Shown here one piece after another: positions 51,377-54,424 of a DNA stretch of 64,000 nucleotides. The position numbers were made by a program, and so were the translations under genes. Source of the DNA: Maribacter algarum (ex Zhang et al. 2020). GTDB lineage: Bacteria; Bacteroidota; Bacteroidia; Flavobacteriales; Flavobacteriaceae. How positions within the stretch are numbered: position 1 is the first letter of the stretch; each line of letters starts with the position of its first letter. The notes under the pieces were generated by a model. It was given only the letters and a program-made list of their open reading frames with translations, was not told the origin of the DNA and ran no database searches. The stretch spans positions 806,001-870,000 of the forward strand of contig NZ_VATY01000002.1 in NCBI RefSeq assembly GCF_005885635.1, given 5' to 3'.

Positions 51377-52531
51377 TTATTTAATGTTCCCTTGTGTTAC
51401 CGTAAAATCAAAAGTTGCCTTCTCTTTTGTGGCCAACCAGAAGTTCTTTGTACTTCCCCAAGAGGCGTCCGGAGCAGCTTGTCTTGAGAAATTATCAAGA
51501 TTTGAGGTGACTTCATCCATCTTCTCTTGTGATATGGCTTCTGTGGAAATAACAATAGTGAGTGCTTTGAATACTTTTTGAGAATCAGCTGTTGAGGGTA
51601 CTCGTGCGCCATGTTCGTTGATAAGGTCCTGTGCGGTATAGATTCCTATGGCATCCGCCGTAAACTGACCATAAGCCTGTGTGCCTTCGGGATTTACCGC
51701 CACCTGAATAGGTTCAAGTTCATCAGCTCCTATTAATCCCATTGCATAAAGTTCTAAGTCGCCATAGATAACGGAATTTCCTCCATTAGCAAAAGCACCG
51801 AATCCATTTTGTCCGTTGAGTTTTCCTTGATAGGTGTTGTTGCCAAGGTCTTCGATTTCGTCAAAGCCACCCAGTTGTCCTGCAACGCTGGCATAGCCCC
51901 AATGACCACCTACGGTTGTCGGAATAATTCCTTTATTACCCCAAGAATGTGCTATTTCGTGCAAAAAGGGTCCACTTTTAATATATTCTGTTCTTGGCAT
52001 ATAAATGATGCTTTTCAATTTCCCTTCGGAACCATAAGTCGCAGAATTATCATAGGTATTTGACCCAAGCCCCTGTACTTGATTTTGAACCAAGGTAGAT
52101 CTGCCGAAAAACAAGTCCGGCGGTTTTACAGCTTCTACAGATAGAATAATGATATAATCAAAATCATCTTTAAAATACTGATATGCTTTTTCGGAAACCT
52201 GCTTCAAATTCCCTTCTCCTTCAAGAAATAGATTGTAGTCTGATTGTGGTAAAACATAATTGGCAACCGACCTAGTGGCATCAAGAGTAAAGTCTTGATT
52301 AAATACAACGGCACCTGTTGGGGGTATATCCATGGTGTCAGAAGAGTTATCATTTGAAGTGTCGTCGTTTGAGCTGTCATCATTCATTTCTTCAGTATCC
52401 TCAGAAACTGCATCCTCCTGTTCAGTAAGTATACTTGCATCTTTACTGCATGACGTGATATAAAATAGAAATGCGAAAACAAATAGATAAGGTAGTGTAA
52501 ACGAAATACGATGTGGGCCAATAGTTTTCAT
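51377..52531 (-). CDS. zincin-like (HExxH) lipoprotein
   Basis: A 384-residue lipoprotein (lipobox YITSC, C28), an acidic/Ser-Asn linker (about 40-70) and a domain with HEIAHSW (191-197), the zinc-binding HExxH helix of metallopeptidases. GGHWGYAS about ten residues later could give the third ligand (His). I recognise no named peptidase family. The linker suggests surface display away from the membrane. Confidence 0.75.
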   Translation of the reverse strand: MKTIGPHRISFTLPYLFVFAFLFYITSCSKDASILTEQEDAVSEDTEEMNDDSSNDDTSNDNSSDTMDIPPTGAVVFNQDFTLDATRSVANYVLPQSDYNLFLEGEGNLKQVSEKAYQYFKDDFDYIIILSVEAVKPPDLFFGRSTLVQNQVQGLGSNTYDNSATYGSEGKLKSIIYMPRTEYIKSGPFLHEIAHSWGNKGIIPTTVGGHWGYASVAGQLGGFDEIEDLGNNTYQGKLNGQNGFGAFANGGNSVIYGDLELYAMGLIGADELEPIQVAVNPEGTQAYGQFTADAIGIYTAQDLINEHGARVPSTADSQKVFKALTIVISTEAISQEKMDEVTSNLDNFSRQAAPDASWGSTKNFWLATKEKATFDFTVTQGNIK

Positions 52532-52991
52532 TGTTGGGACATTTGGAATAGGTCCTTATATAACCCCTTTTCTTCTTATTTATTTCCTTGGGAAAATAAT
52601 ACTCGATAAAGTGCAATTGATAAAAGCCCTACCCTATTTTGATTGCTTTTACTAAAGCCCGTTTGTTTGATTTCCATGTATTTTTATAATATCCTAAATT
52701 TTAACAGAAGAGTTGCTTTCGCAGATATTCAGTTTAAAATATTGGTAATCAATGTTTTAAATATTAATGGCTTATCGTTATAAATCAAATACTGTTAAAT
52801 ATTCCATAAAATGGTACCTTTTTATGCATAGTACTGTAACAAAAATATTTGCGACTCGTCTATTAGGTGTAAGTCAATTGGAAACAACCAAAAAACAATT
52901 CATCATTTCAATTCGACAGTTCAGAAACATCAATTAGAAAGAACGATAAAAAAACAACAATTTTACACCATCAATAAAAAACAACAGTATT
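52532..52991 (+). other. A/C-rich leader region before the tiny-ORF array
   Basis: No conventional gene is seen. The distal half (from about 52880) is strongly A/C-rich and G-poor on the + strand, like flavobacterial mRNA leaders. It contains a 37-codon ORF at 52824-52937 (MHSTVTKIFATRLLGVSQLE...) of unclear reality. A near-consensus -7 element AATATTTG is at 52844-52851. The proximal part 52532-52810 shows nothing I can name. Confidence 0.35.
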
Positions 52992-53108
52992 ATGAAAACT
53001 TTACATCCACATCAATTAAGACCAAAAGTATATTTCACATTAGGCTTTGGCTGGAATACAGATAGACTGTATGACCAAAGAATAAAAGGCAAGAATATTC
53101 AATCGTAA
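52992..53108 (+). CDS. tiny protein ORF 1 (38 residues), unknown
   Basis: ATG at 52992 after an A-rich leader (AATAAAAAACAACAGTATT), stop TAA at 53106-53108. The 38-residue product starts MKTLHPHQLRPKVYFTLGFG and continues WNTDRLYDQRIKGKNIQS. It is basic, with one Trp followed by Asn and several Arg, like ORFs 2-4. It has no TM segment. It opens an array of four ORFs in one direction. Too short for routine gene calling; translation is inferred from the array pattern. Confidence 0.5.
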   Translation: MKTLHPHQLRPKVYFTLGFGWNTDRLYDQRIKGKNIQS

Positions 53109-53128
53109 TCGAACCATTAGTTAATAAT

Positions 53129-53170
53129 CAATCATTTAAAAACAAACATCATGGAAATTTTAAACAAACA
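53129..53170 (+). repeat. leader repeat, copy 1 (in front of and into tiny ORF 2)
   Basis: A 42-bp segment that recurs at 53261-53302 with two mismatches. It covers TTAAAAACAAACATC, the ATG and the first codons (M-E-x-L-N-K). The A/C-rich stretch before ATG probably acts as translation enhancer in place of a Shine-Dalgarno. Confidence 0.8.
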
Positions 53171-53234
53171 ATACAAGCTTGGAAAGGAAATCACCAAAAG
53201 TAACACTTGGAACAACAGAAGAAGATTTAGATAA
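53151..53234 (+). CDS. tiny protein ORF 2 (27 residues), paralogue of ORF 3
   Basis: ATG at 53151, stop TAA at 53232-53234. The product is MEILNKQYKLGKEITKSN followed by TWNNRRRFR at its end. It shares M-E-x-L-N-K-x-Y, S-[NS]-x-W-N-N and [RK]-R-[FY]-R-stop with ORF 3, and the two share a 42-bp leader repeat. The C-terminus is very basic. No known small-protein family is recognised; a nucleic-acid or ribosome contact is only a guess from charge. Confidence 0.6.
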   Translation: MEILNKQYKLGKEITKSNTWNNRRRFR

Positions 53235-53260
53235 ATCTATTTACAATCAAAATTCATCAT

Positions 53261-53302
53261 CAATCACTTAAAAACAAACATCATGGAAAATTTAAACAAA
53301 CA
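53261..53302 (+). repeat. leader repeat, copy 2 (in front of and into tiny ORF 3)
   Basis: Second copy of the 42-bp segment of 53129-53170, 132 bases downstream. The differences are a T/C before the A-rich stretch and a T/A in codon 3 of the ORF. Confidence 0.8.
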
Positions 53303-53369
53303 TTACGTAGTAAAATCATCAGAAACATCAAAAAGCGACATCTGGAACAATAAACGCCGTTACAGATAG
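53283..53369 (+). CDS. tiny protein ORF 3 (28 residues), paralogue of ORF 2
   Basis: ATG at 53283, stop TAG at 53367-53369. The product begins MENLNKHYVVKSSETSKS and ends DIWNNKRRYR. Differences from ORF 2 include conservative changes (R/K, F/Y) and a preserved reading frame despite DNA divergence in the middle, which suggests selection on protein. It follows the second leader repeat. Confidence 0.6.
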   Translation: MENLNKHYVVKSSETSKSDIWNNKRRYR

Positions 53370-53400
53370 TCGAGGGTATAACCCTTTAAGACTAGAAATC

Positions 53401-53505
53401 ATGAAAACAATCATCAATCAATCATCGATAGTATCAACAACCTCAGTATTTTTCTCAGAGTCTAATCATCTCGATAGAATTCGTTGGACAGATTTAAAAT
53501 GTTAA
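53401..53505 (+). CDS. tiny protein ORF 4 (34 residues), unknown
   Basis: ATG at 53401, stop TAA at 53503-53505. The product begins MKTIINQSSIVSTTSVFFSE and ends SNHLDRIRWTDLKC. Like ORF 1 it begins MKT[LI] and has a V-[FY]-F then a D-R-[LI] segment, so ORFs 1 and 4 may be distant relatives. It is the last ORF before the strong hairpin at 53540-53571. Confidence 0.5.
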   Translation: MKTIINQSSIVSTTSVFFSESNHLDRIRWTDLKC

Positions 53506-53539
53506 CTCCGCTCATCACGGAATTTGAACCTATCAAAGT

Positions 53540-53571
53540 AAAGGCCCGTACTTCATCAAGTACGGGCCTTT
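53540..53571. terminator. strong hairpin terminator after the tiny-ORF array
   Basis: AAAGGCCCGTACTT (53540-53553), loop CATC, then AAGTACGGGCCTTT (53558-53571): a perfect 14-bp stem followed by ATATTTTTG. It ends the + strand array and can also end the minus-strand gene that stops at 53630. Confidence 0.92.
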
Positions 53572-53629
53572 ATATTTTTGTATTAGCTTACCTCTACCCT
53601 AATGGGTACATTTCAGGTATATTTCAATT

Positions 53630-54424
53630 CTAGTCTTTCAAAGATATTTCTTCGTCTGTTCCATCAGGATATGTGAGGGTTGCGATATCATCGCAAGTTC
53701 CGTCTCCGAAATCAACATCCACTTTGAGTCCGTTTTTATTCAACTGCATAATTCCTTTTCCGACATAATCACAGGCTCCGGTAATTTCAAGGGCAGTGGT
53801 AATATTGACAACGTAAGTATTACCATCAGCCTTTACGGTCCAATCACCAGCTATGGTTAATCCGCTATTTTCCAGATTATTAAAATCAAAAACGAATCCT
53901 AGAGTTTTAGATCCTGTTTCCTCAATTATAGAACCATCTTTAAGCTTAATGCTCATATCACTTGTCACCGAGAATGAAAGTCCGCTTTGACCATCACCAC
54001 TAATTATGAAGCCTCGGGTTCCATTGATTTCATAATCACCAACCATCAAATCCGTATAGGTTGCTGAAAAAGAGTTTTCTTGCCCCTCAGTATAGGCTAT
54101 GCTTATACTACCGGTAATCATTTCTCCACCTTCGTAGCTACAGTTATCGAAAGTAACGGTAAATCCAGTATCTGTGAATTCGGTTACATGACAATCTTCT
54201 AATCGAGATGATTTACCTGATATTCCACTATTGAAAACATCTGCGATAATATTATCGGCAGCTCCAGATATATCGTCAGTATTTAAAATTGTTTTCACTT
54301 CAGTTGAAGACACTTGTTGGTCTTCCACCTGCGGGTTATAATCATCTTCGCTACAGCTAAAAACAACTAGAGCAAGACCACTGAAAAGAAGAAACTTGGT
54401 TGCTGATTTAAATAAGGTTTGCAT
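53630..54424 (-). CDS. beta-rich lipoprotein of unknown function
   Basis: A 264-residue lipoprotein (lipobox VVFSC, C24) followed by SEDDYNPQ. The rest alternates polar/hydrophobic strands (e.g. GFTVTFDNCSYEGGEMITGSI, TYTDLMVGDYEINGTRG) with four to five cysteines. It resembles a repeated beta-sandwich with no known active site. No family is recognised. It stands alone and ends at the shared hairpin. Confidence 0.75.
   Translation of the reverse strand: MQTLFKSATKFLLFSGLALVVFSCSEDDYNPQVEDQQVSSTEVKTILNTDDISGAADNIIADVFNSGISGKSSRLEDCHVTEFTDTGFTVTFDNCSYEGGEMITGSISIAYTEGQENSFSATYTDLMVGDYEINGTRGFIISGDGQSGLSFSVTSDMSIKLKDGSIIEETGSKTLGFVFDFNNLENSGLTIAGDWTVKADGNTYVVNITTALEITGACDYVGKGIMQLNKNGLKVDVDFGDGTCDDIATLTYPDGTDEEISLKD

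Follow-up and report, generated by a model that had tools for sequence, protein, structure and literature searches.

Tandem arrays of predicted micro-protein genes behind a conserved ECF-type promoter in Flavobacteriaceae

The described systems closest to the one reported here are of two kinds, small arginine-rich proteins and promoters served by extracytoplasmic function (ECF) sigma factors. The proteins are those of the DUF1127 group (YjiS, CcaF1 and the Agrobacterium SDPs), which we take to be Pfam PF06568 and some members of which are under alternative sigma control. In the published account of this group (PMC12501420), RNA is the ligand of one member, CcaF1, whereas the sensor kinase PhoR is bound by other members, and the group lacks an experimental structure. 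The promoters are those of the ECF class SM6 of Flavobacterium psychrophilum, which in the main text of their description have a CGT -10 box, are induced by low nutrients and control an ECF/anti-sigma pair as well as secretion genes and the RNA Rfp11 (PMC9723704). Here we describe a locus of Maribacter algarum that recalls both, an array of four tiny open reading frames (ORFs) behind a long conserved promoter. It lies in a stretch of 64,000 nucleotides (nt) from contig NZ_VATY01000002.1 (positions 806,001 to 870,000 of the forward strand), called the window below, in whose numbering positions are given.

The four micro-ORFs (Table 1) lie exactly where an earlier note made from the sequence alone had placed them, all on the same strand, and the gaps between them of 42, 48 and 31 nt confirm its range of 31-48 nt. 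Micro-ORFs 2 and 3 share a 54-nt direct repeat (91%) spanning leader and start and hence are paralogues. As the window is AT-rich and its ORF list holds many ORFs of 20-40 residues on both strands, chance alone often yields ORFs this short and the case for the micro-ORFs rests on comparison. The peptides found by comparison are of an A type of 28 residues (MRTLNNNQLTGTLNGTKSNQWNTKRRYR-like; window micro-ORFs 2 and 3), a B type of 37 residues (MKASITKTATESKTGQYFSSFRNSKRAQWAQYRNFNR-like, with relatives ending in SKRVQWASSRNHTH), a C type, which is window micro-ORF 1 with its GWNTDRxYDQ motif, a D type, which is window micro-ORF 4 with RIRW, and an E type of 43-44 residues having WKGTKRYAH near its end. 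Types were assigned by motif rules that require the motif residues and leave codon choice free, and thus motif conservation is partly by construction. The A and B types are short and contain about 14% arginine, as do the DUF1127 proteins (PMC12501420), whereas the C, D and E types contain only 8.3-9.4%. Unlike the DUF1127 proteins, the peptides are encoded in tandem arrays behind a dedicated promoter, have a C-terminal core centred on tryptophan and belong to Flavobacteriaceae.

Table 1 Coordinates of the features of the array locus in the window
Feature	Positions	Strand	Remarks
Conserved region 5' of the -35 box, TGTTAAA...GGTACC...TATGCA	52793-52828	+	BLAST matches and conserved columns in the 116-promoter profile
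TAGTAC box joined to ECF-type -35 TGTAACA	52829-52841	+	Same -35 precedes the ECF sigma/DUF4252 operon
ECF-type -10 CGTCTA, 15 nt past TGTAACA	52857-52862	+	
5' leader, 129 nt before ORF1	52863-52991	+	
Micro-ORF 1, C type	52992-53108	+	38 residues, MKTLHPHQLRPKVYFTLGFGWNTDRLYDQRIKGKNIQS; orthologues in L023, L099 and others
Micro-ORF 2, A type	53151-53234	+	27 residues, MEILNKQYKLGKEITKSNTWNNRRRFR; A profile E 6.5e-9, partly by construction (a row of that profile)
Micro-ORF 3, A type	53283-53369	+	28 residues, MENLNKHYVVKSSETSKSDIWNNKRRYR; A profile E 3.0e-13, partly by construction (a row of that profile)
Micro-ORF 4, D type	53401-53505	+	34 residues, MKTIINQSSIVSTTSVFFSESNHLDRIRWTDLKC; close counterparts in L023, L099
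Small hairpin TCCG-CTCATCA-CGGA after ORF4	53507-53521	+	Weak, post hoc motif; resembles hairpins that certain B-type genes have at their stop codons
Intrinsic terminator followed by a T run	53538-53573	+	16 pairs by terminator scan

The array is preceded by a promoter spanning 52793-52870 of the form TAGTAC-TGTAACA-N15-CGTCTA with its core at 52835-52862. Neither this promoter and its leader nor the wide spread within the family and the tandem amplification given below had appeared in the earlier note. A DNA search gave similar sequences in 20 of 59 genomes, the own genome included, some of the matches being short and maybe due to chance; these fell in two parts, the upstream stretch 52793-52906 and the ORFs. 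The upstream region matched at 16 places in 10 genomes, including contig C14 of the own genome, with matches starting at about 52787-52805. Nearly all of the 20 related loci (L023-L042) have the long conserved promoter and, behind it, at least one tiny ORF, in most cases with others in tandem; L040 breaks off before this can be seen. A promoter-only scan of named genomes gave at least 117 stretches (L089-L205) and these, together with the window and the related loci, made up 131 distinct promoter sites upon removal of duplicates by their first 120 nt. All counts for these sites, and for the 117 loci whose neighbouring genes are treated below, hold among the matches listed. The titles from the scan are mostly Flavobacteriaceae and, with the exception of one Neobacillus, all Bacteroidota; the genera include Maribacter, Winogradskyella, Aquimarina, Aequorivita, Algibacter and Arenibacter.

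A micro-ORF chain scored by the motif rules follows the promoter directly at 117 of the 131 sites, compared with a single site in each of the antisense, upstream and further downstream controls, the last of which was applied only to loci that were long enough. Among the 14 sites that lacked a scored chain, four are cut by the end of the locus (L040, L100, L101, L127), one is the Neobacillus match (L156) and four (L103, L161, L182, L202) have a further micro-ORF type that falls outside the motif rules, which brings the sites with micro-ORFs to 121 of 131. This further type, found in Gramella/Christiangramia loci behind the same promoter, is MTTLVSNTKSRRSFMTTEANSSQFSFSSKRRYF-like. The remaining five sites (L113, L116, L142, L159, L198) precede other genes. 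The consensus over 116 promoters, in which the search boxes were fixed by construction and the remainder was free, reads TTAAA-n-TTAAA-n-GTAC-TTTGTTATACA-TAGTACTGTAACAAAA-N12-TCGTCTATTA. The tie holds also from the peptide side. When 60 loci were collected by the A and B peptide profiles (several belong to one array), TGTAACA-N14-16-CGTC was present within 900 nt upstream at 51, in 45 distinct promoter sequences, and the TAGTAC box at 43 (antisense control, 0 of 60). Of the nine peptide loci lacking the promoter, three have one-base variants of TGTAACA (L223, L233, L241) and one is a later array copy with a changed -10 (L247).

The substitution pattern is that of coding DNA. Alignment of the window with the related locus L023 of genome G010 covered 126 codons, with 38.0 synonymous changes per 71.0 sites and 38.0 non-synonymous changes per 307.0 sites, a pooled ratio of non-synonymous to synonymous rates (dN/dS) of 0.144, micro-ORFs 1 and 2 taken alone being saturated at synonymous sites. 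The changes at the three codon positions were 18, 17 and 41, and the frame is thus respected, a point that the earlier note had raised for checking. The comparison with L099 gave a dN/dS of 0.196 (codon positions 3/4/12), and the six pairs among four tandem B-type copies of the own genome, which when pooled are non-independent, gave 0.112 (6/9/48). The conserved arginine residues are encoded by up to six codons (87 B-type and 109 A-type sequences) and, of 111 neighbouring pairs of the same type and length, 20 encode identical peptides, 19 of these from different DNA. Given the homology, the frame-respecting substitutions and the shared promoter, the micro-ORFs go beyond chance, and comparative evidence of this kind leads us to regard the four micro-ORFs and their relatives as almost certainly real protein-coding genes.

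We consider it improbable that the product is instead the RNA, a small RNA in which the ORFs are incidental. Such an RNA would have a precedent in Rfp11, which is driven by an SM6 promoter in F. psychrophilum according to the main text of that work (PMC9723704), and there are small hairpins in the B-type arrays and after ORF4. Moreover, ORF4 has few synonymous changes relative to L023 (0.138 per synonymous site, pS) and hence may be subject to a further constraint on its RNA, and the transcript with its terminator folds somewhat better than its shuffled versions (z -2.2, one of 20 shuffles doing equally well). However, codon-level selection and identical tandem peptides encoded by different DNA argue against an RNA product, as do leaders of the well-translated kind. 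Scans of the whole window gave no Rfam RNA family and no tRNA (ARAGORN).

The leaders in question were compiled for 287 micro-ORFs and have A at -3 in 93%, at -6 in 65%, at -11 in 90%, at -12 in 94% and at -13 in 90%, with G making up 3.7% overall. The corresponding values for 46 window ORFs of at least 200 residues, a mechanical set in which wrong starts or spurious ORFs are possible, are 41, 39, 54, 50 and 45%, with 11.3% G. An A at positions -3, -6, -12 and -13 increases initiation in Flavobacterium johnsoniae (PMC6847099). The leader pattern suggests that the micro-ORFs are strongly translated. The A-rich leader which the earlier note gave to every ORF is found before ORF1, ORF2 and ORF3, whereas that of ORF4 is less A-rich.

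The distribution of the peptides was surveyed with an A profile of 20 rows and a B profile of 18 rows (A1/A2 were built from promoter- or BLAST-found sequences, those of the own genome included). In 149 Flavobacteriaceae genomes from 148 genera, the sets searched for A and B being taken as identical, the A type was found in 63 genomes and the B type in 19. Hence homologous ORFs, for which the earlier note had suggested a search of relatives, are present in many genera. Counting overlap and union by hand, three genomes have both types (G000, which is the own genome, G061 and G131) and 79 have at least one. The two types are mostly mutually exclusive, which may reflect replacement or just lineage. 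A phylum sample of 296 genomes, with no figure for the share from outside the family, had A-type matches in 4; the own genome is one of these, and all four belong to Flavobacteriaceae. A single array may encode as many as six peptides, with up to five tandem copies of one type that are often nearly identical. The own genome has a second array (L031, at about 687280-688050 of contig C14, minus strand) of four B-type genes. The first of these is separated from the rest by 135 nt, and the gap holds an GCATATTTGTACC-like element, which recurs in further B-type arrays and is possibly a second promoter of the housekeeping type.

Five peptides, those of the four window ORFs and one of the B type, were scanned against Pfam, NCBIfam and PHROGs and gave no convincing match, in keeping with the statement of the earlier note that the peptides match no known family. 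A match of ORF4 to LisH_2 (E 0.033) was chance-like and failed the cut-off. For DUF1127 the five peptides gave no Pfam match at E <= 10. A viral scan with the B profile and one pattern matched 47 stretches, none of them a relative. The scanned libraries and a literature search (supplements aside) yielded no earlier description of such arrays. By analogy the arrays are best read as sigma-controlled, arginine-rich small proteins that would work in the manner of DUF1127 and are no members of it, and there is a fair chance that they are a kind of their own.

Which sigma factor might serve the arrays was approached through the other copies of the promoter. The pattern TGTAACA-N15-CGTCTW occurs at seven sites in the own genome versus one for a reversed control pattern, and two of the seven are its two arrays. 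At L075 (contig C15, 65939-65966, minus strand) the same promoter form precedes an operon for an ECF sigma factor (Pfam Sigma70_r2, E 1.8e-14; Sigma70_r4_2, E 6.7e-17), two DUF4252 proteins and, in the anti-sigma position, a protein of 144 residues that has one hydrophobic stretch (by eye) and no Pfam match. The sites L077 and L078 precede proteins that lack Pfam matches, and L079 precedes a membrane-type protein of 379 residues. In five relatives (L080, L081, L082, L084, L085) the sigma operon was seen by eye to have the same promoter form. As ECF operons are usually autoregulated and the promoter form is the same, the L075 sigma factor is the best candidate. From the promoter form observed, the arrays are very likely driven by an ECF sigma factor, of which the L075 protein would be the presumptive identity. 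Six genomes lack DUF4252; none of these is on the array lists and five of the six are small.

The likeness to the SM6 promoters lies in the CGT -10 box and in an ECF sigma/anti-sigma operon having the same motif (PMC9723704). Here a CGTC -10 and a TGTAAC -35 (the latter by our own definition) are found at fixed spacing, with the same form on the ECF sigma operon, as would be the case for members of an SM6-like regulon. However, the main text on SM6 gives no TGTAAC and makes no mention of a TAGTAC box or TTAAA region (PMC9723704), and the sites with the TAGTAC box that we collected lead to micro-ORFs in 121 cases and to other genes in five.

The A-type peptides (130 distinct) have a median length of 28 residues, a median charge of +6 and 14.3% arginine, and the B-type peptides (91 distinct) have 37 residues, +7 and 13.7%; a few of the ORFs scored (up to 57-60 residues) begin at an upstream in-frame ATG. 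Each of the four window peptides has one tryptophan, as had been noted, and of the basic character ascribed to all four, three show it clearly; strong hydrophobicity is found in none of them. The most conserved part is a short C-terminal arginine- and lysine-rich segment with one tryptophan (WNSKRRYR or SKRxxWxxxR), this residue being eighth from the end in 112 of the 130 A-type peptides and ninth in 86 of the 91 B-type peptides. A natural short version of 19 residues that keeps the core is present in L041. In G061 (L275, contig C1, 490500-494500) the core is reduced to three tandem peptides of 24 residues, MRTTIFKNSKRIRWSEHRNYAIKS-like and the smallest of the B-type cores; no promoter of the TGTAACA/CGTC kind was recognised in that stretch. 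The arginine-rich RNA-binding peptides of phage lambda N and HIV Rev too have a short arginine/lysine-rich segment with tryptophan, whereas the arrays are chromosomal and multi-copy and the likeness would be one of analogy. An AlphaFold model computed from 26 sequences for a single B-type peptide places helices at residues 9-17 and 25-36, with confidence (pLDDT) blocks of 79 and 77 in the second half versus 54 and 59 in the first; hence the C-terminal segment of the B type is possibly helical. DUF1127 proteins have two surface-charged helices; for this one B-type peptide two helices are predicted, at low model confidence.

Neither the A nor the B type has a hydrophobic segment (grand average of hydropathy -1.49 and -1.21; highest 15-residue means 0.76 and 0.96). 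Hydropathy therefore bears out the view of the earlier note that lack of a hydrophobic helix makes a type I toxin unlikely, and it is the sole ground on which its suggestion of signalling peptides, in the sense of a secreted signal, is disfavoured. That the peptides are type I toxins or antimicrobial peptides we rate as extremely unlikely. They are cationic and small, as such peptides are, but they lack the helix, occur in up to five tandem copies of one type, have no PHROGs match (five peptides) and no viral B-type relative, and Rfam is empty for the window.

Neighbouring genes encoding at least 90 residues were clustered for 117 loci and the families named by eye. The commonest family, secreted-type and mostly on the opposite strand upstream, is found at 29 loci. 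An ExbD-like gene is near 19 and is the next co-directional gene at 14, and other families include MFS-like (6), EamA-like (8) and dipeptidase-like (10) proteins. Neighbours differ between loci, and no constant partner gene stands beside the arrays at these 117 loci. Among the 22 commonest families no maturase of the kind that acts on ribosomally synthesized and post-translationally modified peptides (RiPPs) was recognised, radical-SAM or other. As the neighbours vary and no maturase was recognised among these families, RiPP precursors, which the earlier note had proposed and which would be modified at tryptophan, lysine or arginine and exported, are disfavoured and in our estimate quite improbable. 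The arrays do resemble tandem RiPP precursor genes in that the genes are short and tandem, the N-terminal part of the peptides varies and the C-terminal core with its tryptophan is conserved, and WN-x-K presumably resembles cyclophane RiPP cores. The MFS-like, EamA-like and dipeptidase-like neighbours would also suit export, but they are present at just 6-10 of the 117 loci in mixed positions or orientations, and charge is highest in the conserved core of the peptide.

The same survey bears on a more serious alternative, that the peptides act by protein-protein contact at the membrane, on a sensor kinase or on the transcription machinery, the cationic C-terminus lying on an acidic surface. DUF1127 proteins, of similar size and arginine content, bind PhoR in the account cited above (PMC12501420), the conserved tryptophan and the aromatic residues would suit a protein surface, and ExbD-like genes follow 14 of the arrays. 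However, there is no conserved partner, the commonest family and the ExbD-like family being confined to 29 and 19 loci, and we judge this alternative to be rather unlikely.

The window array ends in an intrinsic terminator with arms of 15 perfectly complementary bases each and a loop of 4 (53539-53572), so the perfect hairpin of the earlier note is present and slightly longer than the 14 bp given there. The single transcription unit which that note proposed is supported as likely. The flanking genes, 51377-52531 and 53630-54424, are both on the minus strand, and neither has a Pfam match at E <= 0.01. This arrangement speaks against a role as leader peptides, or as nascent-chain arrest peptides, in the control of a gene further on, since the strong terminator is followed by an opposite-strand gene and no co-directional gene lies directly downstream. 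A row of several near-identical copies is also unsuited to that role, and C-terminal extensions occur. The position of the tryptophan, which is the same in most A-type peptides, and, in some loci, overlap of the last A gene with a terminator-like hairpin before an ORF of 43-44 residues would fit such control, which we nevertheless regard as hardly credible. In L039, L090, L119, L131, L140, L191 and L205 the codons for A-type KRRYR double as an arm of a terminator-like hairpin (AAAAGACGTTAC...GTAACGTCTTTT or a variant), which in several of these loci precedes an E-type ORF; translation-coupled read-through is a possible consequence of this arrangement.

The explanation that we prefer has an ECF-type sigma factor transcribing one polycistronic mRNA from 52835-52862. 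The A-rich start regions would favour translation and tandem duplication would raise the dose, so that the cytoplasm would receive a flood of soluble and mostly cationic peptides, probably when the cell is stressed. The arginine-rich C-terminal segment would then dock on RNA or the ribosome, with an acidic protein as the second choice, and the docking would adjust translation or RNA metabolism during envelope or nutrient stress. We hold this explanation in its entirety, that of ECF-driven and strongly translated arginine-rich micro-proteins binding RNA or an acidic partner, to be evenly poised between right and wrong. Binding of the arginine-rich segment to RNA or the ribosome in particular, a role that the earlier note had also listed, is a plausible but tentative proposal. 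More speculative is a stress system of an undescribed kind, in which an ECF sigma factor, an extended dedicated promoter and tandem micro-proteins of about 19-44 residues would serve to coat or remodel RNA or ribosomes through the C-termini, the A and B types filling the same slot.

A number of observations weigh against the preferred explanation. Five of the 131 promoter sites lead to other genes, and at five of the nine peptide loci that lack the promoter no clear form of it can be made out (L213, L220, L221, L225, L228). Spread is patchy in that the profiles find neither A nor B type in 70 of the 149 genomes, among them G011 of the same genus. At least one of the seven sites in the own genome (L076) falls inside the region of a long ORF, and thus not every TGTAACA-N15-CGTCTW site is a promoter. 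The promoter form may be common to several ECF factors or serve other ones, and DUF4252, present in 143 of the 149 genomes, does not track the arrays. The C, D and E types (15, 6 and 18 peptides) are lower in arginine, and the D type is barely cationic (median +1.5). Finally, the B-type AlphaFold model is weak (mean pLDDT 66.6; predicted template modelling score, pTM, 0.29), and solved structures, when searched by sequence, yielded nothing beyond chance-like matches (best E 0.081 and 1).

Arrays for which the scanned libraries have no model are thus carried by roughly half of the sampled flavobacterial genera, with 79 of 149 genomes. This spread and the tandem multiplication behind one stereotyped promoter point to a general need in these bacteria. 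Hence the arrays offer a handle both on ECF responses in marine Bacteroidota and on the binding targets of arginine-rich micro-proteins, and small synthesisable peptides plus a defined promoter make both questions directly testable.

Some minor features of the arrays and of their promoter remain. In the window leader, 52891-52984 has 72% DNA identity to the leader of a lipoprotein-like gene of the own genome (contig C12, 227937-228027); that the two share a second promoter may be offered as a guess. The TAGTAC-type promoter also precedes a protein with LGFDTSKYLPEGFNAL-type repeats (L116, L159, L198), and a similar repeat protein stands behind the TGTAACA-N15-CGTCTT site L078 of the own genome. 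In Eudoraea and Muriicola (L113, L142) a hydrophobic protein of 71 residues replaces the micro-ORFs behind this promoter. Hairpins having the loop CTAATCA or one like it, a motif defined after examples had been seen, number 24 in 55,166 array bases versus 5 in 51,964 bases just downstream; of the 24, 21 are in B-type arrays and three follow D genes. They lie at or after stop codons in L031, L033, L036, L037, L149, L160 and others, as in the window, and their stem bases vary in pairs (AATCG/CGATT, AGTCG/CGACT, ACCG/CGGT, TCGG/CCGA).

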